Shown here in pieces: positions 40,786 to 51,831 of a DNA stretch of 64,000 bases (the first letter of the stretch is position 1; each line of letters opens with the position of its first letter). Made by a program: the position numbers and the translations under genes. Where the stretch lies: NCBI GenBank assembly GCA_016187925.1, contig JACPIS010000039.1:62001-126000 (forward strand). The letters run 5' to 3'. Below the pieces are notes generated by a model. That model searched no databases and was not told the DNA's origin. It worked only from the letters and a program-made list of their open reading frames with translations. Origin of the DNA: Opitutia bacterium. GTDB taxonomy: Bacteria; Verrucomicrobiota; Verrucomicrobiia; Opitutales; Opitutaceae.

Positions 40786-41850
40786 TTACAGGACACCCTT
40801 CGTGCTGGGCACGTCGCGGCTCTCGCCGCGGGCGAGGGCAGGGCGCAGCGCGCGGCCGAAGCTCTTGAAAAGAACCTCGATCATGTGGTGAGTGTTCTCG
40901 CCCTTCACCGTCATGTGCAGGGTCGCGCCGAGCGTCGTGCTGAGCGACTGGAAGAAGTGCGGCACGAGCTCGCTCGGCAGTTCGCCGACATTCTCGCGGG
41001 GAAATTTCCCCTCGAAGACGAACCACGGCCGCCCGCTCAGGTCGAGGGCGACCTGCGCGAGCGACTCGTCCATCGGCATGACGAAGCCGTAGCGGCCGAC
41101 GCCGCGCTTGTCGCCCAGCGCCTGCTTGAGCGCCTGGCCGAGGGCGAGGCCGACGTCCTCGACGGTGTGGTGCTCGTCGATCGCGAGGTCACCCTGGCAC
41201 TGGATGCTCAGGCCGATGCCGGCGTTGCGCGCGATCTGGTCGAGCATGTGGTCGAAGAAACCGAGGCCGGTGGCGAGCCGCGCGGGCGCGGGGGTGTCGA
41301 GGTCGACCGACACGGAAATCTTCGTCTCCTTGGTCTGGCGGCTGACGGTGGCGCGGCGCGGGGCGTCGACGAGCAGGCGGGCGATCTCGGTCCAGCCGAG
41401 CGCCTCGCGGTGGTAGCGCAGGCTGCGGATGCCGAGATTCTCGGCGAGCTGCTGGTCGGTCTCGCGGTCGCCGATGACGAGCGATTGCGTGCGGTCCCAG
41501 TCGGTGGCGCGCAGGTAGTCGAGCACGAGGCCCGGCTTGGGCTTGCGGCAGTCACAGCGGTCGGCCGCGGTGTGGGGGCAGACGCGCACGGCCTCGAAGG
41601 TGAGGCCCTGCGAGCGCAGCACACCGATGAGGAGATTCTGCAATGGGCGGAACTCCTCCTCGCGGAAACTCGGCGTGCCGAGGCCGTCCTGGTTGGTGAC
41701 CATGACGAAGGTGTAGCCGGCATCCCGCAGGCGGAGCAGCACCGGGATGGTGTCGGGCTCGAGCTCGAACTTGTCGAGGCGGTCGATCTGGAAATCGGCC
41801 GGCTCGTGGATGAGCGTGCCGTCACGGTCGAGGAAGAGGATTTTTTTCAT
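40786..41850 (-). CDS. hisB: Bifunctional histidinol-phosphatase / imidazoleglycerol-phosphate dehydratase
   Basis: A 354-residue fusion for steps 6 and 8. The N-terminal 165 residues are a HAD-type phosphatase (FLDRDGTLIHEP; MVTNQDGLGTPSFREEEF; zinc Cys/His in VCPHTAADRCDCRKPKPGL; IGDRETDQQLAENLG). The C-terminal part is the dehydratase (LGFFDHMLDQIARNAGIGLS; DLAIDEHHTVEDVGLALG; LHMTVKGENTHHMIEVLFK). The fused form is more typical of gammaproteobacteria and some Bacteroidota, which makes it a useful lineage marker here. The ATG at 41850 gives MKKILFLDRDGTL. Confidence 0.95.
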   Translation of the reverse strand: MKKILFLDRDGTLIHEPADFQIDRLDKFELEPDTIPVLLRLRDAGYTFVMVTNQDGLGTPSFREEEFRPLQNLLIGVLRSQGLTFEAVRVCPHTAADRCDCRKPKPGLVLDYLRATDWDRTQSLVIGDRETDQQLAENLGIRSLRYHREALGWTEIARLLVDAPRRATVSRQTKETKISVSVDLDTPAPARLATGLGFFDHMLDQIARNAGIGLSIQCQGDLAIDEHHTVEDVGLALGQALKQALGDKRGVGRYGFVMPMDESLAQVALDLSGRPWFVFEGKFPRENVGELPSELVPHFFQSLSTTLGATLHMTVKGENTHHMIEVLFKSFGRALRPALARGESRDVPSTKGVL

Positions 41851-41866
41851 GGCTGGCCGGAAGGAA

Positions 41867-41937
41867 TGTGGGAGGGGCTTTAGGCCCCGACGTTGAATGT
41901 GCGGGTCGCCGAGTCGGGGCGTAAAGCCCCTCCCACA
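41867..41937. repeat. TGTGGGAGGGGCTTTA palindrome in the hisC-hisB gap
   Basis: Left arm TGTGGGAGGGGCTTTAGGCC then CCGAC (41867-41891), right arm GTCGGGGCGTAAAGCCCCTC then CCACA (41913-41937), nearly perfect, with a 21-base centre. Related elements (GTGGGAG-GGCTTTA type) are widespread intergenic repeats in other phyla. Confidence 0.8.
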
Positions 41938-41958
41938 ACCGGACAAAGCAAGACGGGG

Positions 41959-43083
41959 TTAGACACGGGAAAGAACCTCCAGGGTGGCGTTGTTCTCTGC
42001 GGCGGTGCCGACGGTGATGCGGATGGTGTTGGGCACGTCTTTGGTGCGGTCGCGCCAGATCACCCCGGCGGCGCGACCGGCCGCCATGACGCGCGCGGAG
42101 TCGGACACGGCCACGAGCAGGAAGTTGGCGTCGCTCGGCCAGATTTTCTTCACGGCGGGCAAAGCGGCCAGCGCGGCCGCCAGCCGGGTGCGCTCGGCCA
42201 CGAGCGTGCGGATCGACTCGCGCGCGGCGGCCTGGGCGTCGGGCGTGAGTGCCGCCAGCGCGGCCTGCAACACCGGCGTCGGGATCGGATAGGGGGCGAT
42301 GATTTTCTGCAGCACGCCGATGACGGCCGGGTGGGCGAGTGTCGTGCCCACGCGGGCGCCGGCGAGGCCGTAGGCCTTGGACAGCGTGCGCAGCACGACG
42401 AGGTTCGGATGGGCGGTGATCTCGGCGGCGAGGCTCGGCGCGCCGGAGAAGTCGACGTAGGCCTCGTCGACCACGACGACGGCGCGGCCGGCGAGTTCGC
42501 GCACGATGCGCAACACGGCGGAGCGTTCGAGCAGCCGGCCAGTCGGGTTGTTCGGCGAGCAGAGGAAAACGAGTTTCACGGCCGGCTCGGCCCGGACGGC
42601 GGCGAGCACGGCGTCGGCATCGAGTGCGAAGTCGCGCTCGCGCACCAGCGGCACGGTGACGAGCCGTGCGCCCTGGATGCCGGCGGCGACGGCATACATG
42701 CCGTAGGTCGGCGGCGTGGCGAGGATGGCGTCCTGTCCGGCGCGGCAAAACGCGCGCAGCAGCAGGTCGATGCCCTCATCGGAGCCGCGGGTCACGAGCA
42801 CCTGCGCAGGTGCGACGCCGTAGAGCGCCGCGAGCAACGCCACGAGTTCGGCGGGCTGCGGCTCGGGATAGCGGTTGAGATTCAACCGGCCATCCTTCGC
42901 CGAGGCTTCAGAGGGCAAAGACGCGGCCGGCGTCTTTGGGCTCTCGTTGGCATCGAGCCAGACCCTTCGACTGGGCTCAGGGCGGGCGCCGTCCGCCACG
43001 GCCTCCTTGCGGGCCGAGCTGTAAGGCGTGAGCGCGAGGATCTCGGGCCGGACGAGCGAAAGGACGGAGTCGACGGGGTTCAT
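41959..43083 (-). CDS. hisC: Histidinol-phosphate aminotransferase
   Basis: A 374-residue fold-type I PLP enzyme. It starts MNPVDSVLSLVRPEILALTP. Key residues: LDANESP (substrate), LNRYPEPQP, SDEGIDLLLR, the PLP Tyr/Asn segments, PNNPTGRLL, VVDEAYVDF and the PLP Lys in LRTLSKAYGLAGARVG. It is about 20 residues longer than usual near the N-terminus: residues 33-40 (ARPEPSRR) are encoded by a dispersed TCGAC/CTCAGGG repeat and residues 49-61 by a perfect small palindrome. The reading frame is kept, so the gene is probably functional. Confidence 0.94.
   Translation of the reverse strand: MNPVDSVLSLVRPEILALTPYSSARKEAVADGARPEPSRRVWLDANESPKTPAASLPSEASAKDGRLNLNRYPEPQPAELVALLAALYGVAPAQVLVTRGSDEGIDLLLRAFCRAGQDAILATPPTYGMYAVAAGIQGARLVTVPLVRERDFALDADAVLAAVRAEPAVKLVFLCSPNNPTGRLLERSAVLRIVRELAGRAVVVVDEAYVDFSGAPSLAAEITAHPNLVVLRTLSKAYGLAGARVGTTLAHPAVIGVLQKIIAPYPIPTPVLQAALAALTPDAQAAARESIRTLVAERTRLAAALAALPAVKKIWPSDANFLLVAVSDSARVMAAGRAAGVIWRDRTKDVPNTIRITVGTAAENNATLEVLSRV
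42916..42938. repeat. Perfect palindrome inside hisC
   Basis: CAAAGACGC and GCGTCTTTG around GGCCG, lying between the LDANESP and LNRYPEPQP motifs of HisC, where homologues are usually much shorter. Read on the coding strand it gives SPKTPAASLPSE. Confidence 0.6.
42966..42988. repeat. TCGAC/CTCAGGG dispersed repeat inside hisC
   Basis: TTCGACTGGGCTCAGGGCGG-GCG matches the intergenic copy at 50557-50578 (TTCGACAAGCTCAGGGCGGG then CG) except for one extra base and two changes. On the hisC strand it encodes ARPEPSR, in frame. Confidence 0.7.
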
Positions 43084-43098
43084 GAACGGATTGAAAGA

Positions 43099-43165
43099 GG
43101 GTAGGGCGAGGCGTTCCCGCCGAGCCGCGACGCAGGACGGCTCACCCGGAGGGTTCGCCCTACCC
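43099..43165. repeat. TAGGGCG-family palindrome in the hisD-hisC gap
   Basis: GGGTAGGGCGAGGCGTTCCC-GCCGAGCCGCG on the left and CGGCTCACCCGGAGGGTTCG-CCCTACCC on the right. Outer arms GGGTAGGGCGA / TTCGCCCTACCC are complementary. A related single arm is at 50673-50701. Confidence 0.78.
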
Positions 43166-43207
43166 GCGCTGGCGCGCGAAGGAGCGTCGGGGATGACGAT
43201 AGTGGCG

Positions 43208-44509
43208 TCATTTTTTCAAGGCATCGAGCCGCACGCGGACGGCGCGCTGGTGGGCGGCGAGGTTCTCGGCGAGCGCGAGGCGTTCGACCACGGGGCCGAG
43301 CCGGCGCAAGCCGCGCGGCGAGGCCTCCTGCACCGTCATGGTGCGCTGGAAATCAGTCAGGCCGAGGCCGCTGCAGGCGCGCGCCCAGCCGTAGGTGGGC
43401 AGCACGTGGTTGGTGCCGCTGGCGTAGTCGCCGAGCGACTCGGGTGTCCACGCGCCGAGGAACACCGAGCCGGAGGTCGTGATCAACGGCAGCAGCGCGC
43501 GCGGCGATTTCACCTGCAGGATGAGGTGCTCTGGCGCGTAGGCGTTGGCGATGGCCGCGGCCTCGTCGGTCGAGGCGGCGAGGAGGACGCGGCTGGCGGC
43601 CAGCGCGCGCTGCGCCACGGCGGCGCGGGGCAGCGCGGCGAGCTGGCGCGCGAGCGCGGTGCGCACGCGGGCCGCAAATTTTTCGGAGAAAGCGACCAGC
43701 ACGACCTGCGAGTCCGGGCCGTGCTCGGCCTGCGAGAGCAGGTCGGCGGCGACGAACGCGGGCTCGGCGGAGTTGTCGGCGATGACCATCACCTCGGACG
43801 GGCCGGCCGGCAGGTCGATGGCGGCGCCGGCGGCGTCGCGCGAGACCTGAAGCTTGGCCTCGGTGACGAACGCGTTGCCCGGGCCGAAGAGCTTGTCGCA
43901 CTTCGGCACGCTGGCGGTGCCGTAGGCGAGCGCGGCGATGGCCTGCGCGCCGCCGAGCTTGAACACCTCGGTGATGCCGCACAGCCGCGCGGCCTGGAGG
44001 ATCCACGGGCTGACGCGACCGTCGCGCCCCGGCGGGGTGCAGAGCACGCGGACGGGATTGCCGGCGAGCTGCGACGGCACGCCAAGCATGAGCGCGGTCG
44101 AGAACAGCGGGGCGCTGCCGCCCGGCACGTAGAGGCCGACGCGGCCGACGGGGCGCACGACCTTTTCGCACACCACGCCCGGCATCGTCGCTACGCGCAC
44201 CGCGGCCGGCTGCTGCGCGGCGTGGAAGCGGCGCAGGTTGCGGCAGGCGGTGCGCAGCGCGGCGCGGTCGGCGGCCGAGAGGGACTTCTCCGCGGCGGCG
44301 AACTCCGCCGCGCCCACCCGGAGGGACGACAGGCGGGCGCCGTCGAACTTCGCCGTCAGGCGGCGGAGGGCGGTGTCGCCGTGGCGCCGGACGTCGGCGA
44401 TGATGCGCGCGACGGCGGCGGCGACCTGCGGGCGCGCGGCCTGGGCCGGGCGTTGCAGGGCGGCGGCGCGCTGGCGGGCGGAGAGTTTTTTCCAGACGAG
44501 GGATTTCAT
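43208..44509 (-). CDS. hisD: Histidinol dehydrogenase
   Basis: A 433-residue zinc enzyme making the two final NAD-dependent oxidations to histidine. Signatures: GRVGLYVPGGSAPLFSTALM, AQAIAALAYGTASVPKCDKL, FGPGNAFVTEAKLQV, AIDLPAGPSEVMVIADNSAE, LLSQAEHGPDSQVVLVAFSE and the YAPEHLILQVKSPR region with metal His, plus TNHVLPTYGWARACSGL near the end. Length is typical. It follows hisG with a GTCATCCTGAG-type palindrome in the gap. Confidence 0.96.
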   Translation of the reverse strand: MKSLVWKKLSARQRAAALQRPAQAARPQVAAAVARIIADVRRHGDTALRRLTAKFDGARLSSLRVGAAEFAAAEKSLSAADRAALRTACRNLRRFHAAQQPAAVRVATMPGVVCEKVVRPVGRVGLYVPGGSAPLFSTALMLGVPSQLAGNPVRVLCTPPGRDGRVSPWILQAARLCGITEVFKLGGAQAIAALAYGTASVPKCDKLFGPGNAFVTEAKLQVSRDAAGAAIDLPAGPSEVMVIADNSAEPAFVAADLLSQAEHGPDSQVVLVAFSEKFAARVRTALARQLAALPRAAVAQRALAASRVLLAASTDEAAAIANAYAPEHLILQVKSPRALLPLITTSGSVFLGAWTPESLGDYASGTNHVLPTYGWARACSGLGLTDFQRTMTVQEASPRGLRRLGPVVERLALAENLAAHQRAVRVRLDALKK

Positions 44510-44517
44510 GTCAGCGT

Positions 44518-44599
44518 GTCATCCTGGGCGGAGCGAAGGATCCAAGCCGGTGGCTGCGGGCGAACGCACTACTGGATTCTTCACTTCGTTCAGAATGAC
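44518..44599. repeat. GTCATCCTGAG-family palindrome in the hisG-hisD gap
   Basis: Left arm GTCATCCTGGGCGGAGCGAA-GGATCC (44518-44543); right arm GGATTCTTCACTTCGTTCAG-AATGAC (44574-44599). It belongs to the same family as the nested inner element at 39890-39975. Confidence 0.8.
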
Positions 44600-44616
44600 A
44601 GGATAGACGGATTTGC

Positions 44617-45528
44617 TCACAGCATCATCTTTTCGATGGGGAGGACAAGGATGCTGCTCGCGCCGGCCTTCTTGAGGGACTCCATCGTCTCCCAGAAGAC
44701 GGCTTCCTGGCAGACGGCATGGAGAGCGACCTTGGAGTCGTCGCCGGCGAGCGGCAGGAGGGTGGGGTTCTCGGAGCCCGGGAGGAGTTTCTTGATCTCG
44801 GCCAGCGCGGCCTTGGGCGCGTGGAGCATGATGTACTTGGCCTCGGCGGCGAGCTGCACGCCGTCGGTGCGGCGCAGCAGGATCTCAAGGGCGTGGGTCT
44901 TGACGGGGTTGAGCGGGCGGTCGCCGCGGATGAGGACCGCGGTGCTCTTGAAGATGGTCTCGACGGCGCGGAGGCGATTGGCCTCGAGGGTGGAGCCGGT
45001 GGCGACGAGGTCGCAGATGGCGTCGGCGAGGCCGAGGCGCGGGGCGACTTCGACGGAGCCGCTGAGGTAGACGATGTCGGCCTGCAGGCCCTGCGCGGCG
45101 AAATAGCGGCGGGTCAGCTGCGGGTAGGTGGTGGCGATGCGCAGGCCCTGGAGGTCCTGCGGGCCATTGTAGGCGCGCTCCTCGGGGAGGGCGAGGGCGA
45201 GGCGGCAGCCGCCGAAATCGAGTTCGCGCTCGACGGTGTAGGCGTGGCCGTTGCCGGCGGAGCGGCGTTCGAGGGCGGACTCCTCGAGGACGTTGGTGCC
45301 GACGATGCCCAGGTCGCAGACGCCGTCCATGACGAGCTGCGGGATGTCGTCGTCGCGGACGAAAAGGATGTCGATGGGGAAGTTCTCCGAGTGCAGGAGC
45401 AGTTTTTCCTTGGGGGCCTTGACCTTGATGCCGCAGCGGGCGAGCAGGCCGAGGGAATCAGTGGAGAGCCGGCCGCTCTTCTGGATGGCGAGGCGGAGGC
45501 GGTCTTGAGGCGGAGTGGTGGGAGGCAT
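44617..45528 (-). CDS. hisG: ATP phosphoribosyltransferase (long form)
   Basis: A 303-residue enzyme for the first committed step, ATP + PRPP to phosphoribosyl-ATP. The ATG at 45528 gives [20 protein letters not shown] with the PRPP motif following LAIQKSGRL. Catalytic-core landmarks are [36 protein letters not shown] and [19 protein letters not shown]. The extra C-terminal segment, [20 protein letters not shown], is the ACT-like regulatory domain of the long HisG, which binds histidine. It is the first structural gene of the his operon, preceded by a leader peptide and attenuator. Confidence 0.95.
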
Positions 45529-45620
45529 GGGAGGAGTGGGAAAGTTGAGAGCGGGAGGAGAGTTGAGTGGAGCGAAACCGGGAGCGGTGGCCGGGTGGCG
45601 GGAGCGCGGGACCGGGAAAC

Positions 45621-45652
45621 GAAAAACCCCGGCGGGAGTGCCAGCCGGGGTT
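45621..45652 (-). terminator. his attenuator terminator
   Basis: On the minus strand AACCCCGGC-TGGCACTCCC-GCCGGGGTT is followed by TTTCG with more T residues (TTTTT overall at 45621-45625). It lies between the leader peptide and hisG, 93 bases before the hisG start, and is the attenuator of a translation-coupled system. Confidence 0.85.
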
Positions 45653-45693
45653 AAGAAACTTGATCGTTCATCACCACGAGAAGGCACATCCAG

Positions 45694-45713
45694 GCCTTCC
45701 CGCGCGGGAAGGC
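45694..45713 (-). promoter_or_regulatory. Leader-region hairpin of the his attenuator
   Basis: GCCTTCCCG-CG-CGGGAAGGC, a perfect palindrome whose 5' arm begins at the leader stop codon. It is placed as the pause or anti-antiterminator stem; a ribosome stalled on the His codons would alter folding here and relieve the downstream terminator. Confidence 0.65.
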
Positions 45714-45745
45714 TAGGTGGCGTGATGATGATGGGTGCGAATCAT
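45713..45745 (-). CDS. hisL: Histidine operon leader peptide
   Basis: A 10-codon ORF reading [10 protein letters not shown] then TAG, with four consecutive His codons (CAT, CAT, CAT, CAC). It is followed by the hairpin at 45694-45713 and the terminator at 45621-45652, then hisG. This is the classical ribosome-mediated attenuator layout: when charged His-tRNA is scarce the ribosome stalls on the His codons and antitermination follows. The gap 45529-45867 holds no other gene. Confidence 0.88.
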
Positions 45746-45867
45746 GGAATGAATCGGGCTCCAGCGAAGCCGCAGTGACCGGGAGCCCGCAAGAATTTTC
45801 TTTAACCGGTTGCGTCCCGGCCCGCCGGTTGGTTTACCCTAAATCCCTCGTCGGCAACGACCGGGTC

Positions 45868-47031
45868 ATGAGTTCACCGACCGCAGATCCAATTCGTCAT
45901 AACGCAGACTGGCGCGAGGAATTCCAGCCCGCCGGGCTGGTCCTGGCCTCGGCCACGCTGGCGGTGGCGGCGACCTACGCGTATTTTTTGGTCTTCGCAC
46001 AGTTCGGTTTTCTGAAGGCCGTGACGGCGGCGGTCGGCGAAGGCGACGGGCTGCTGCGCGCGATTCTGGCCGTGATGGGTTGCGGCGGCATCGCGGGCAG
46101 CGCGCTCATGGCGTGGCGCTATCAGGAAAAACAAAGCCAGCCGCTGCTCATGGGCTCGTTGCTGGTTTGCGCGGCGGCCGCGGGCCTGACGCTCAAGGTC
46201 CGCGCGCCGGCGGGGTTGTTCGTCGTGGCGCTGCTGACGGGGCTGGGCACCGGCGGTCTGACGGTGGCGCTGGCGGCCACGCTCCGCCGGGCAGTGGGCG
46301 GGGCCTGGCTGGGCACTTGCCTCGGCGTGGGCACCGGGCTGGCGTATGCTTTCAGCAATGTGCCCGCGGTGTTCGAGGCGGGTCCGACCGGCCAGGCGCT
46401 CATGGCCATCGTGGCGGCCTGCGCCGGGGTCGTGGCGGTGCAGGGATTGGATTTGCGGGCACCGCCGCAGATTCCCGCCGGGGTGGACTATCAACCGATC
46501 GGGGTAACGGCCTGGGTGCTGATTTTTCTCGTGCTGGTGGGAGTGGACTCGGCGGCCTTCTACGTCATCCAGCACACGCCGGCGCTGAAGGCGGAGGCTT
46601 GGTCGGGCAGCGGCCGGCTCTACGCCAACGCCCTCGTGCACCTGCTGGCCGGTGTGCTGGCCGGCTACGCGCTCAACCAGCGGGCCGTGGGGCGCACCGT
46701 GCTGGCGGCCACGGTGATGCTGCTCACGAGCTGCCTGCTGATCGACCGCGACTACGCGGCCTTCGGCAAGACGGCGCTGCTCTATCCGGCGGCAGTCTCC
46801 ATTTATTCGACGGCGCTGGTCTTCTACCCGGCGCGGCACGGGCGGCCGGCGCTCGCGGCGCTGGTCTACTCGGTCGCCGGCTGGGGCGGCACCGCGCTCG
46901 GCATCGGCCTGGCGCGCGACCTGAACACCGTGCCGCGCGGGTTCATCATCGCGGCCGGGCTGGTGGTGGCCGGCGCGCTGGGGGTGCGGCAATGGGCGCG
47001 GCAAAGGGCGAAAGCTGCATTGAACCGTTAG
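45868..47031 (+). CDS. MFS-like multi-helix membrane transporter
   Basis: A 387-residue membrane protein from the ATG at 45868 (MSSPTADPIRHNADWREEFQ). About ten to twelve hydrophobic helices: for example LVLASATLAVAATYAYFLVF, PLLMGSLLVCAAAAGLTLKV, VALLTGLGTGGLTVALAATL, VTAWVLIFLVLVGVDSAAFY and VLAATVMLLTSCLLIDRDY. The conserved GTGGLTVALAATLR resembles the MFS signature. Divergent from the his operon leader. Substrate unknown. Confidence 0.78.
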   Translation: MSSPTADPIRHNADWREEFQPAGLVLASATLAVAATYAYFLVFAQFGFLKAVTAAVGEGDGLLRAILAVMGCGGIAGSALMAWRYQEKQSQPLLMGSLLVCAAAAGLTLKVRAPAGLFVVALLTGLGTGGLTVALAATLRRAVGGAWLGTCLGVGTGLAYAFSNVPAVFEAGPTGQALMAIVAACAGVVAVQGLDLRAPPQIPAGVDYQPIGVTAWVLIFLVLVGVDSAAFYVIQHTPALKAEAWSGSGRLYANALVHLLAGVLAGYALNQRAVGRTVLAATVMLLTSCLLIDRDYAAFGKTALLYPAAVSIYSTALVFYPARHGRPALAALVYSVAGWGGTALGIGLARDLNTVPRGFIIAAGLVVAGALGVRQWARQRAKAALNR

Positions 47032-47055
47032 GCGCGGGAGTTTAACGCTGAAGTC

Positions 47056-49059
47056 TTGCACACGCCGCCCACCCGTTTCGCCTGGTTCCACCGCCAATTG
47101 CCGCGCCGCCACGGCGGGTTGATTTTGTTTTTCGCGATCTTCGTCGCGCTCTCGTTCGTCACGCGCGTGGCGCTGCTGCTCAAGGCGGCGCACGAGGTGA
47201 CGTGGAATCCCAGCCTGCTGGCCGCGTTCGGCTGGGGTGTCGTGTTCGATCTCGGCGCGGCGGCGTTCGCCTCGCTGCCGCTGACGGTCGTGCTGACGCT
47301 GCTGCCGGCGCGGTTCTTCACGTGGCGCTGGGCGCAGTGGCTGTCGCTCTTCACCGGCTTCGCGATCATCTATGCGTTGCTCTTCGGCCTGGTGTCGGAG
47401 TGGACGTTCTGGGACGAGTTCGGGGTCCGGTTCAACTTCATCGCGGTCGACTACCTCGTCTACACGAAGGAAGTGGCGGGCAACATCCAGGAGTCCTACA
47501 ACCTGCCCGCGATCCTCAGCGGCGTGTTTGCGGTCGCGCTGTTGATCCACTGGCTCATGTGGCGCACGACGTGGCCGGCGCGCTGGCTCACGGCCCCGGC
47601 GGCGCCCGCCAAGGCGCGCTACGCGGCGGGCGCGTGGTGGTTCGCCGGCGCGCTGCTCTTCGGCGGCCTGCTGTCGGGCGAGTGGCTCCCGGATTTCAAA
47701 AACAACTTCAACCGCGAGATCGGGAAAAACGGCGTCTGGTCGCTCTTCGAGGCGTTCAAGGCCAACCGGCTCGATTTCGACGATTTCTACCCGACGATGC
47801 CGATGGCCGCCGCGTTCCAGCGCGTGCAGCAGAACCTCGTGCTCGACGGCTCCACGCTCCTGCGCCCCGGCGAGGAGGACACGCTCCGCCTCGTGCAGAA
47901 CGACGGCCCCGAGCTCCGGCCCAACGTCATCCAGATCACGGTCGAGAGCCTCAGTGCGGATTTCCTCAGCATCTTCAACCGCGCGTCGAACCTCACGCCC
48001 CACCTCGCCGAGATCGCGGCGCAGAGCCTCGTGTTCGACAATTTCTACGCCACCGGCACGCGCACCGACCGCGGCATGGAGGCGCTCACGCTCGCCGTGC
48101 CGCCGACGCCCGGCCGTTCGCTCGTGAAACGCCCCTACAACGAGCATCTTTTCACCCTCGGCTCCGTCTTCCGCACGAAGGGCTACGACACCGCGTTCAT
48201 CTACGGCGGCTTCGGCTACTTCGACAACATGAACTATTTTTTCGGAAACAACGGCTACCGCGTCATCGACCGCAACGTCGTGGCGAAGGGCGACGTCACC
48301 TTCGCCAACGTCTGGGGCGCCTGCGACGAGGACCTCTTCCGCTGGACCCTGCGCGAGGCCGACGCCGCGCACGCCGCCGGCAAGCCGTTCCACTATTTCG
48401 TCATGACGACGTCGAACCACCGGCCGTTCACGTTCCCCGAAGGCCGCATCGACCTGCCGTCCAAGACCTCCGGCCGCGCCGGCGCCGTGAAGTACACCGA
48501 CTACGCCATCGGCAAACTCATCCGCGACGCGGCGGCGAAGCCGTGGTTCAAGAACACCGTGTTCGTCATCGTCGCCGACCACTGCGCCTCGAGCGCGGGC
48601 AAGACCGAGCTGCCCATCCAGAATTACCACATCCCGCTCATCATCTACTCGCCCGGCGGCCACATCGCGCCCGGGCACATCCGCGTGCTCACCAGCCAGG
48701 TCGACTACGCGCCCACGCTGCTCGGGCTGCTGCGCTGGACCTACCCCTCGCGCTTTTTCGGCCACGATGTCCGCAAGGTCCGCCCGGAGGACACGCACGC
48801 CCTGCTCGGCAACTACCAGAAGCTCGGCCTGCTCAAGGGCGATGATTTCGTCGTGCTCAAGCCGATCCGCCAGCAGGCCCAGTTCCTCTACAACTGGCAG
48901 ACCTTCGCGCTCGCCGAGCGCCCGCTCAACCCCGCGCTGCGCGACGAGGCCATCAGCTATTACCAGGCGGCCAACCATCTCTACGAGATGCGCGCCTACC
49001 GCGAGATTCCCGCGGACAAAACCGGCGAACTCCGCGCCACCCGCGAAAAAGCGCGCTAA
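47056..49059 (+). CDS. LTA-synthase-type sulfatase (phosphoglycerol transferase family)
   Basis: A 667-residue membrane enzyme. A TTG at 47056 is the likely start because no ATG lies before the first transmembrane helix (GGLILFFAIFVALSFVTRVA). Five helices fill about residues 20-215, then a linker and a large extracytoplasmic sulfatase-fold domain: NVIQITVESLSADFL, NFYATGTRTDRGMEALTLAV (catalytic Thr region), FHYFVMTTSNHRPFTFPEGR, KYTDYAIGKLIRDAAAKPWF and VIVADHCASSAGKTELPIQN. Related enzymes transfer phosphoglycerol or phosphoethanolamine to glycans or lipids. The acceptor here is unknown. Confidence 0.88.
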   Translation: MHTPPTRFAWFHRQLPRRHGGLILFFAIFVALSFVTRVALLLKAAHEVTWNPSLLAAFGWGVVFDLGAAAFASLPLTVVLTLLPARFFTWRWAQWLSLFTGFAIIYALLFGLVSEWTFWDEFGVRFNFIAVDYLVYTKEVAGNIQESYNLPAILSGVFAVALLIHWLMWRTTWPARWLTAPAAPAKARYAAGAWWFAGALLFGGLLSGEWLPDFKNNFNREIGKNGVWSLFEAFKANRLDFDDFYPTMPMAAAFQRVQQNLVLDGSTLLRPGEEDTLRLVQNDGPELRPNVIQITVESLSADFLSIFNRASNLTPHLAEIAAQSLVFDNFYATGTRTDRGMEALTLAVPPTPGRSLVKRPYNEHLFTLGSVFRTKGYDTAFIYGGFGYFDNMNYFFGNNGYRVIDRNVVAKGDVTFANVWGACDEDLFRWTLREADAAHAAGKPFHYFVMTTSNHRPFTFPEGRIDLPSKTSGRAGAVKYTDYAIGKLIRDAAAKPWFKNTVFVIVADHCASSAGKTELPIQNYHIPLIIYSPGGHIAPGHIRVLTSQVDYAPTLLGLLRWTYPSRFFGHDVRKVRPEDTHALLGNYQKLGLLKGDDFVVLKPIRQQAQFLYNWQTFALAERPLNPALRDEAISYYQAANHLYEMRAYREIPADKTGELRATREKAR

Positions 49060-49303
49060 AACAACGCCAGTTGTTTCCCGCCGGGCCAGCGGAAAAACAA
49101 TAAGCCAACCGTCCGAAATCGGACGCGGTAGCACGCGACCGCTGGGCGCGCCGCAAAGAATATGGCGAACAGTCTGGCGGTGCGAAGTGCAGCCGCCTTC
49201 ACGGTCCGTCTATACCGGTGCGGCCGCACGAAAATCAAACCCCCAGGCGGTTGGTATAACACACTTGCCGCGGTAAGATGAGGAGCAAGCGGGCGGGGCA
49301 TGT

Positions 49304-50335
49304 TCACTTGCTGCCGGCTTTCACCGCGGTGACGACATCCCGGATGGCGGCGATGACCGCGGTCGGCGCGTCCAGTTGCAGATGATGGCCGGCTTGGGGA
49401 ACGGCGATAAATCGGCCCCGGCTCGACAGGGCGGCGAGATCTTCCTTCTGGGTTTTTTTCTCCGCGCGCACCCGGCGCTGTTCCTCATCGGTTCCCTGAG
49501 CGTCCCACTCCTTCGCTCCGGCGATGGAAATGAGCGGCCGGTCGCCGAGCTCCCGCGGATGGCTTTGGCGCGATCGATGCAAGTCGCGCAGTTCCTCCGA
49601 CCAGTAGTCGTCCGCGGCGGCGGATAATTTTGGATGATTCAAGAACCAGAGGCGAACGCGCTGCAACTCCGCGGGGAGTTGCGAGAACGGAGACTCGATC
49701 TTGGGCGGGCCAAACATCTGCCGGTTGAAATCGACCTGCTCCAGGTCTTCCTTCGTCGGCGGCTTCGGCGGGCTGGTCCGCAAGGTTTGCACGTCCGGGA
49801 CGGCGCGCTCTTGGGCGAGTTCGCGCACCCGCGCCAGTTTGCCGTTGATGGACAGGACGGTGTTCTCGTGCGTGGCGTCGACCAGCACCACGCCGGCGAC
49901 TTCCGTCGGGTAGTTCCTGGCGTAAACACGGGCGACAAGTCCGCCGACGGAATGGCCCACAAGCACATAGGGCGGCCGGAGGCCCGAGTTGGCCAACGCC
50001 AGGCGCAGCTCGTGCGCTTCCTGTTTCATGCTGCGAGGCGTCGGGCCGGGATCGCTCCAGGCCGATCCCGCCCGGTCGTAGCTGACCGTGCGCACCGTTT
50101 TGGCCACCTCGGACTGAACGAGCACCCAGTCGAACGAAAAATCCCCCGCGCCTGGCAATAGCACGACGGTGGGGCTGCCTTCGCCGAGGACATGGAGATG
50201 CAGGCGATATCCCCCTACATCCACCAGCTGGCCCGGAGGATTGGGTGCGGACTCGTCGGTCGACGAACCGCTAACAGCGGGAAAGCCACTTGCGAGGCAA
50301 AGAAGGACCACCAGGAGGTGTACAGAGCGCGCCAT
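49304..50335 (-). CDS. Secreted alpha/beta hydrolase
   Basis: A 343-residue hydrolase from the ATG at 50335 with signal peptide MARSVHLLVVLLCLASGFPA. Core: YRLHLHVLGEGSPTVVLLPG (oxyanion HG-like PGAGDFSF), VSYDRAGSAWSDPGPTPRSM, the nucleophile VGHSVGGLVARVYARNYP, and the catalytic His in VPQAGHHLQLDAP. A charged insert (RRVRAEKKTQKEDLAALSSR) lies between. Similar proteins are annotated as haloalkane dehalogenase-like or lipase-like; the reaction is unknown. The gap 49060-49303 before it has only a small CGTCCG-AAAT-CGGACG hairpin. Confidence 0.85.
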   Translation of the reverse strand: MARSVHLLVVLLCLASGFPAVSGSSTDESAPNPPGQLVDVGGYRLHLHVLGEGSPTVVLLPGAGDFSFDWVLVQSEVAKTVRTVSYDRAGSAWSDPGPTPRSMKQEAHELRLALANSGLRPPYVLVGHSVGGLVARVYARNYPTEVAGVVLVDATHENTVLSINGKLARVRELAQERAVPDVQTLRTSPPKPPTKEDLEQVDFNRQMFGPPKIESPFSQLPAELQRVRLWFLNHPKLSAAADDYWSEELRDLHRSRQSHPRELGDRPLISIAGAKEWDAQGTDEEQRRVRAEKKTQKEDLAALSSRGRFIAVPQAGHHLQLDAPTAVIAAIRDVVTAVKAGSK

Positions 50336-50556
50336 GATTCGGATAATACCCGATAAGAGGGGGGCGATGGGGCCGATATTTTGGTGGCGGAGAAAGCAGC
50401 CAAAGCAAACAAGACTGCACCGGGCGGGTAAATTATTGAGGGTCTTCGCTGTTTCAAGCGGGTAAAGAAGGAACATACGCCGTCACGGAAAGGAGGTTGA
50501 CCACGAATGGATCCATCTAGGGATGAATCTTCCAAGGAATGCTCCGACGAATCCTA

Positions 50557-50578
50557 TTCGACAAGCTCAGGGCGGGCG
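50557..50578. repeat. TCGAC/CTCAGGG dispersed repeat, intergenic copy
   Basis: TTCGACAAGCTCAGGGCGGG then CG, the intergenic homologue of the piece found inside hisC at 42966-42988 and, in variant form, nested at 38125-38165. Confidence 0.7.
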
Positions 50579-50672
50579 TCCCTGCCACTGGGTTTCGGAG
50601 CCGGCTCAGCGAAAGTTTCGCCGATGGGAGAAACGCATTTGAGGCTTCCACGCTGCATGAAACGTTCTCAGG

Positions 50673-50701
50673 AGCGGCTCGTCGGGACGACTCGCCCTAC
50701 C
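50673..50701 (-). repeat. TAGGGCG-family repeat arm
   Basis: On the minus strand GGTAGGGCGAGTCGTCCCGA then CGAGCCGCT, very close to the left arm of the element at 43099 (GGTAGGGCGAGGCGTTCCCG then CCGAGCCGC). Confidence 0.65.
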
Positions 50702-50715
50702 GCACGACCAGTTGC

Positions 50716-51831
50716 CTATAGCAGCTCTAGCTGGGTGCCGTCGCCGCGGTTGAGGTCGCCACGGCCGGGCCGGCGAAAGGCCGCGCCCGACAACTCGATC
50801 CACTGCTGGCCCAGCCCGGCGCGCCGCGCGGCCACGGTGAACATCTGCCGGATCTGCTCGGCAAAAATTCCCTGGCCGCGCATCCGGACGCCGAAGGTGG
50901 CATCGTAAAGCTTGCCGCCGCGGATCTCGCGGATGCGGTCGATCACGCGGGCCTTCTTCGTCGGCGCGTGCGTGTCCAGCCAGGCGAGAAACACATCCTT
51001 CACGGAGTGCGGCAAGCGCAGCACGATGTAGCTGGCGGTCTTTGCCCCGGCTTGCGCCACGGCGTCGAGGATGGCCGGCAGCTCGTGGTCATTCAGCCCG
51101 GGGATCACGGGTGAGACGAACACGCCGACGGGAATGCCCGCGTCGGCCAGCATCCGGATGGCGCGCAGCCGGTGCTCAGGGAGGGAGGCGCGCGGCTCGA
51201 GCTTGGTCGCGAGGCTGGCGTCGAGCGAAGTGACCGACACATGCACGGCCACCGCCCGGTGCTCGGCGAGGCGCGCAAGCACGTCGCGGTCGCGTGTGAC
51301 GAGGAAATTCTTCGTGATGACGCCGACCGGCTGGCGGAACTCCGCGCAGACCTCGAGGCAGGCGCGCGTCAGCTTGAAGCGCCGCTCGGCGGGCTGGTAG
51401 CAGTCGGTCACGCCGCTGAGGCCGATAGATTCGGGCCGCCATTTGGGCGCGGAGAGTTCGCGGCGCAGCAGTTCCGGCGCACGGAGCTTGACCAGGATCT
51501 TCGTCTCGAAATCCAGCCCGCTGCTCCAGCCGAGGTATTCGTGGTAAGGCCGCGCAAAGCAGTAGGCGCAGCCGTGTTCGCAGCCGCGGTAGGGGTTGAG
51601 ACCCCAGTGCCGGCCGAGGTCCGGACTGTCGGTGTAGGTGAGCACCGTCTCGGTCGCGTCTTCGTAGAAATTGGTCTGAGGCCGCGGCCGCTCGATCGGC
51701 ACGCCGTGCTCGTCGAATTCCGCGAAGTCCGCATCCGGCTCGACGAGGAGGGGCTCGAAACGGTTGGGCGGGTTGATGGAGGCGCCGCGGCCCGCGATGG
51801 CGGAGGCGGAAGTCGGCGGATGCGGCGTCAT
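50716..51831 (-). CDS. PA0069-family radical SAM protein (SplB-related)
   Basis: A 371-residue radical SAM protein. The iron-sulfur motif CEHGCAYC places cysteines at 84, 88 and 91 (CxxxCxxC), within GLNPYRGCEHGCAYCFARPY. Upstream is NFYEDATETVLTYTDSPDLG, downstream KWRPESIGLSGVTDCYQPAE and VITKNFLVTRDRDVLARLAE, typical of the PA0069 group of COG1533 (spore photoproduct lyase-like). The C-terminal part (GKLYDATFGVRMRGQGIFAE) is characteristic of the group. Substrate unknown. Confidence 0.92.
   Translation of the reverse strand: MTPHPPTSASAIAGRGASINPPNRFEPLLVEPDADFAEFDEHGVPIERPRPQTNFYEDATETVLTYTDSPDLGRHWGLNPYRGCEHGCAYCFARPYHEYLGWSSGLDFETKILVKLRAPELLRRELSAPKWRPESIGLSGVTDCYQPAERRFKLTRACLEVCAEFRQPVGVITKNFLVTRDRDVLARLAEHRAVAVHVSVTSLDASLATKLEPRASLPEHRLRAIRMLADAGIPVGVFVSPVIPGLNDHELPAILDAVAQAGAKTASYIVLRLPHSVKDVFLAWLDTHAPTKKARVIDRIREIRGGKLYDATFGVRMRGQGIFAEQIRQMFTVAARRAGLGQQWIELSGAAFRRPGRGDLNRGDGTQLELL

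Follow-up and report, generated by a model that had tools for sequence, protein, structure and literature searches.

Intragenic REPs have been found in many species, with the highest number recorded for the GTAG repeats of Opitutus terrae, according to Di Nocera et al. 2013 (PMC3733652). These authors argue that many intragenic REPs may be neutral when placed in linkers or loops, and suggest effects for those in repair genes. Two intragenic elements of Rickettsia conorii, RPE-4 and RPE-6, are there classed with the short CGTC REPs. The Rickettsia palindromic elements (RPEs) were first reported as units of about 150 bp, as stated in PMC10969869. Here, we focused our attention on two repeats, R1 and R2, which lie in frame inside the hisC gene of a 64-kb DNA stretch (the window, i.e., the whole stretch analyzed), and on a third one, R3, located just past the same gene.

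Two inserts near the N-terminus of HisC

The hisC gene (41959..43083, minus strand) encodes a histidinol-phosphate aminotransferase of 374 amino acids, as identified from the list of open reading frames, from the TIGR01141 model (337 bits, with a cut-off of 276.55) and from matches to the PDB chains 7szp and 1fg3; both inserts lie inside it. The first-pass annotation had described this HisC as extra-long near its N-terminus, and comparison with relatives having neither repeat agrees, as R1 and R2 together add 18 residues. The R1 insert (42964..42987, minus strand; 24 bp, encoding residues 33-40, ARPEPSRR) was recognized from the HisC alignment and from a repeat match. In the window, the pattern TTCGACN{2,3}GCTCAGGGCGGGCG has two matches, at 42966-42988 in hisC and at 50557-50578, and it had none in 100 shuffles. 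The two copies, 7.6 kb apart, are the same in 20/20 fixed letters and differ in the spacer alone (TGG or AA), so the recurrence of the repeat at the second site, also proposed at first pass, is well founded. This second copy (50557..50578, plus strand) is apparently intergenic, being contained only in a 135-aa stop-to-stop frame without a Pfam match. The hisC form of R1, with a TNN spacer, is unique in this genome; the one further copy with a three-base spacer has CAG.

The N-termini compared were those of 11 genomes (ten of the same genus and G021, of the same family), together with the named records L080 (a Lacunisphaera sp. MAG, Opitutaceae), L081 and L082. The sequence of G004 in this set is cut short further in, and G011 and G012 (weak matches) and L085 (which lacks the N-terminus) were left out of the counts. 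R1 is missing from 14/14 other N-termini of the same HisC type, and set against L080 and L081 it is a precise in-frame insert of 24 bp. Conservation of the extra residues in distant HisC proteins is likewise absent, as both 7szp and 1fg3 have gaps at the R1 position. G021 carries an unrelated five-residue extension at this spot.

The second insert, R2, had been missed by the first-pass annotation. It spans 30 bp (42881..42910, minus strand, with ends placed by alignment to within a few bases) and adds ten residues, and its core, GAAGCCTCGGCGAAGG (42894-42909, minus strand), is found elsewhere in the genome. Directly beside it stands a perfect palindrome (42916..42938), which had been noted earlier and is real, its 9-bp arms enclosing a 5-bp loop. 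R2 occupies the same hisC site in this genome, in its close relatives L080 and L081 (30 bp) and in G008 (24 bp, same place), and is missing from the other 11 of the 15 HisC N-termini aligned. By reading, the palindrome arms are perfect in this genome, L081 and G008, where a C-G pair stands in place of A-T, and contain one mismatch in L080. As RNA, the palindrome/R2 stretch gave raw energies, calculated without shuffles, of -21.9 kcal/mol here and -32.2 kcal/mol in G008, in which the fold consists of two neat hairpins. In the HisC tree, this genome, L080, L081, G005 and G010 are grouped (support 96/98), with G008 outside, and a single clade of the four R2-carrying hisC genes was rejected (p-AU 0.006). 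One gain of R2 followed only by inheritance therefore fails, and the distribution may reflect a separate second entry, exchange through recombination, or an old gain followed by several losses.

The frame and the key residues of HisC are kept, as the first-pass annotation had maintained: the positions that do not vary across an alignment of 30 HisC sequences are retained, including DEAY at 206-209 and K236, which we take to be the cofactor-holding lysine. An AlphaFold2 model built from the same 30 sequences has a mean pLDDT of 90.3, and its core is predicted well. Residues 33-39 are the sole segment of at least three residues with a pLDDT below 50. Since all ten-residue blocks from 21 to 70 lie at 49-63, poor placement extends over the entire region of the two inserts and takes in VWLDANE, and a short helix at residues 59-63, inside R2, falls in this low-confidence region. 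The protein shares 37-46% identity with many gammaproteobacterial and Bacteroidetes HisC proteins, and about 30-41% with the best match of 23 family members from other genera, G021 apart; the comparison suggests that the gene may have been acquired from outside. An Rfam search of positions 41500-51000 returned two matches, both below the gathering score and neither corresponding to a repeat family; one of them resembles the histidine operon leader RF00514 (45618-45731, minus strand; 35.8 bits, under a gathering score of 49).

Copies in other genes and genomes

In this genome, TTCGACNNGCTCAGG occurs nine times, versus one match for the reversed control, and TTCGACN{2,4}CTCAGG 12 times versus three. 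The latter pattern gave 31 versus two matches in G005, and 22 versus 15, near background, in the remaining 11 members of the genus. Across the phylum, a stricter and longer form of R1 (CCTTCGACNNGCTCAGGG) was detected in 33/288 genomes, while the control gave no match, and R1 is also found in the single-contig genome G015. G005 shows a strong amplification of the repeat (31 copies; loci L068-L079), and there some copies look, by reading, like inverted pairs in longer hairpins. Viral contigs contain at least 120 matching stretches, a count made without a control and from which nothing was concluded. The first-pass annotation had called the hisC repeat palindromic, a term that R1 does not bear out: shuffled versions of the hisC copy fold as well as the copy itself (z +0.89), the same is true of the copy at 50557 as single-stranded DNA (z +0.51), and the flanks show no co-variation in this genome (G000; p 0.08 and 0.12) or in G005 (p 0.91 and 0.39).

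The search for further copies within genes was fruitful, as 4/12 R1 copies of this genome lie inside family-matched genes, namely hisC, pdhC (E2), cstA and fmt. Another copy is located in a TonB-dependent receptor frame, upstream of the plug domain (L045). For the remaining seven (L040, L043 twice, L044, L046, L048 and 50557 in the window), no frame that contains the copy has a Pfam match, and these are therefore probably intergenic or in unknown genes. In pdhC, R1 forms a clean in-frame insert of 24 bp, with the junction GGCACC/insert/GGCATC as compared with GGCACCGGCATC in relatives. It is absent in 9/10 genus orthologues found (none was found in G002 and G010), and the tenth, from G005, carries a decayed copy of R1 in this very position. 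When the mitochondrial-type E2 chain 6ct0 is aligned, an eight-residue gap falls here. As a tree of pdhC and hrpA joins G000 with G005, with modest support (85/81), the pdhC copies fit one old insertion, judging from these sequences. In cstA, a clean in-frame R1 insert of 27 bp, with a 3-bp GGC ambiguity at the junction, is absent in 4/4 close orthologues aligned; the other genomes gave distant matches or none, and a PDB search at E 0.001 returned no match. In L166 (G009), a single stop interrupts a CstA-like frame, which may represent a decaying gene or sequencing errors. The fmt copy encodes residues 53-58, just ahead of the start (67-69) of the two PDB alignments printed, and it was set aside as an insert case because these alignments begin past the R1 residues.

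Regarding R2, 55 copies with up to one mismatch were counted in 13 genomes of the genus, versus one in the control, and the exact form was found in 23/80 genomes of the family, with no control matches. Allowing up to two mismatches, GAAGCCTNGGCGAAGG is found at 60 places in this genome versus ten for the controls. Stem pairing was evaluated in the 16 copies that keep the core, among 20 places with zero or one mismatch to GAAGCCTNGGCGAAGG. The outer stems vary by locus and still pair, with 52/80 positions paired versus a mean of 38.7 and a maximum of 51 in 5000 shuffles; restricting the set to CC..GG cores (14 copies) gave 44/70 paired (p 0.0004). Judged from this co-variation, R2 is probably a hairpin of the REP type. 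Taken alone as single-stranded DNA, the hisC copy is no more stable than shuffled sequences (z +1.12), and three other copies gave z -2.42, -0.79 and -1.35, the first alone standing out.

Inside family matches, R2 is found in hisC, a lipoate-ligase-like gene (L050), ybeY (L051) and hrpA (L055), with a clean insert in hisC only. At L062 the repeat precedes an aminotransferase domain, and the other R2-holding frames scanned had no Pfam match. Among the candidates examined, ybeY showed no clear insert in the comparison, and hrpA was rejected as a clean case, as its 22-aa gap relative to the PDB corresponds to linkers that, within the genus, are only 4 aa shorter. An HrpA-like frame with several stops in L197 (G011) also points to a decaying gene or to sequencing errors. 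By reading, R1 stands in place of the R2 hairpin loop in L040 (1485-1525) of this genome, and in L071 (about 1474) and L077 (about 1521) of G005; in such nested copies, both repeats can form one structure. Of the six possible frames, R1 is open in five and R2 in all six, or in five when it contains GTAG. These mostly open frames, together with clean insert lengths of 24, 27 and 30 bp, account for the retained frame, in a sample in which genes broken by further insertions would escape view.

Probable passenger insertions and the competing explanations

The explanation that we favor, with a probability of roughly 0.77, is that R1 and R2 represent two short dispersed repeat families which inserted separately and in frame into hisC, and which are carried there as passengers. 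Each repeat would have entered the 5' part of the gene with a length divisible by three and with the frame in use open throughout, and it is because of these lengths and this readability that HisC would have gained 8 and 10 residues, flanking the conserved VWLDANE segment on either side. HisC is predicted most likely to still work, and the repeats, presumably near-neutral, would be kept because they do little harm. R1 would be a unit of about 24 bp, and in the three nested copies it may serve as the tip of the R2 hairpin. The copies would be products of non-autonomous elements that moved; single-stranded or template-switch events may have driven this, or a Y1/HUH enzyme acting in trans. Sequence identity, presence or absence, clean R1 junctions and the frame were all seen directly; the earlier description of the repeat as mobile is borne out only in terms of presence and absence between species, and movement itself is deduced, as no copy was caught moving. 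Several results count against this explanation. Neither R1 nor R2 could be linked to a transposase in the loci searched (see below), their hisC copies are poor folders as DNA, the flanks of R1 show no co-variation, its looser pattern is close to background in the 11 genomes of the genus other than this one and G005, and the TNN-spacer form stands alone in this genome. Random insertion, moreover, does not predict R2 at one shared hisC site in a pair of lineages that are separated in the tree.

Possible, although doubtful, is that R1 and R2 are REPs moved in trans by the RAYT transposases (IS200-like tyrosine enzymes) of this genome. Eight Y1_Tnp matches are present, seven of them above the cut-off, and 5/7 proteins tested pass the NCBIfam cut-off for REP-associated transposases. 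Moreover, R3, an inverted pair (TGTGGGAGGGGCTTTA..) in the hisC-hisB spacer (41867..41937), folds far better than expected (z -7.93, with 0/200 shuffles equally good) and is also found on both sides of a Y1-transposase (RAYT) gene in L034. R2, in turn, is a probable hairpin with a GNAG motif. However, neither R1 nor R2 was found, at up to one mismatch, within 1.5 kb on each side of the Y1_Tnp matches (0/8 loci). In addition, the GNAG motif of R2 is internal to the stem, with no free end, and reads GTAG in only 5/16 copies and GAAG in hisC, while the clean R1 inserts have no GNAG-like tag. A looser partial pattern that placed R1 near RAYT-like genes was dismissed, as it matched unrelated loci as well. 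The unit of the R3 inverted pair is TGTGGGAGGGGCTTTANGCCCCGA, and G005 also has R3 beside hisC (L005). By reading, each RAYT-like gene in L033, L035 and L036 has a distinct repeat pair on its flanks, which at L033 is GTAGGGCGGGGTCGCTGACCCCGCC.

An extended form of the insertion scenario, which we regard as unlikely, would have R1 and R2 as modules of one frame-neutral hairpin set, repeatedly entering permissive stretches of conserved enzymes across Verrucomicrobiota by a non-RAYT route and at non-random sites. The non-random choice of sites would follow from the same hisC codon position being hit in two lineages. If this were the case, R1 and R2 would constitute a steady source of new peptide loops.

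It is also quite improbable that the inserts are functional, with the peptide or an mRNA hairpin tuning HisC or his expression under selection. In agreement with such a role, R2 is retained in hisC of this genome, L080, L081 and G008, with the adjoining palindrome kept or compensated, and the REP-like inverted pair R3 lies just past the gene. Against it, 11/15 HisC N-termini do without R2 and 14/15 without R1, the hisC copies of both repeats are poor folders in this genome, and both repeats also occur in unrelated genes.

Ordinary variation in loop length, with a chance likeness to a repeat, is highly improbable. The unrelated extension of G021 at the R1 spot would be of this kind, and the linker that holds R2 in hrpA is variable among relatives. 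For R1, however, this is contradicted by the match of all 20 fixed letters to the copy 7.6 kb away, never reached in shuffles, and by the same core in the clean 24- and 27-bp inserts of pdhC and cstA; for R2 in hrpA, loop variation may apply. An assembly or binning artefact, conceivable for a metagenome-derived genome in 48 contigs whose near named relatives are MAGs, has a negligible likelihood, given that the hisC R2 is common to four assemblies and the pdhC R1 to two, that R1 occurs in the single-contig G015, and that the frame is kept in the inserts examined.

Comparison with described repeat systems

Intragenic short repeats are, as a kind, already known. A literature search with the letters of R1 and R2 returned no paper, sequences inside figures not being searchable, and the literature searched gave no description of the present variant, in which R1 measures about 24 bp and the R2 stems differ from locus to locus. 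For Verrucomicrobiota, the sole earlier report found in these searches is PMC3733652. The value of the present case lies in junctions that show conserved genes cleanly with and without very short repeats that entered them. Should the reuse of sites and the matching of stems to loci be borne out, they would constrain how small elements move, and would illustrate one way in which proteins gain loops.

MITEs and ERIC-type elements, as described in PMC10969869, are likewise short non-autonomous repeats able to fuse in frame with genes. They differ from the repeats studied here in that no target duplication is seen at the pdhC junction, and in that R1 lacks clear terminal inverted repeats. RAYT-linked REPs and REPINs resemble R3, an inverted pair whose repeat also occurs on either flank of a RAYT gene, the genome having several RAYTs; R1 and R2 differ in not being found near RAYT-like genes (within 1.5 kb).

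The analogy with RPEs drawn by the first-pass annotation stands in one respect, as these are also non-autonomous repeats lying in frame in unrelated protein genes, and in-frame insertion was found here in hisC, pdhC and cstA. It does not extend to the type first reported, which is palindromic and about 150 bp long, whereas the inserts of this Verrucomicrobiota genome measure 24-30 bp and R1 is hardly palindromic. Regarding the CGTC REPs (8-9 bp stem, 4-5 bp loop), no terminal CGTC tag was found, by reading, on the hisC copies of R1 and R2.

The closest counterparts are the GTAG REPs of O. terrae, a relative of this genome as judged from the near Lacunisphaera record L080. Comparison with these families was based on their description in PMC3733652. 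There, the tag is an unpaired end; in R2, GNAG stands inside the stem, and R1 is tagless and hardly a hairpin, with no unpaired terminal GTAG on its three clean inserts (by reading). Regarding the stem of 5-13 bp that characterizes GTAG REPs, the outer stems of R2 co-vary as a set but the hisC copy folds poorly, and R1 has no such stem. Association with RAYT genes, a further characteristic, holds for R3, and was seen for neither R1 nor R2 within 1.5 kb of the eight Y1_Tnp matches. What both systems have in common is the presence of short repeats, hairpins there and probably in R2, in frame inside unrelated conserved genes.
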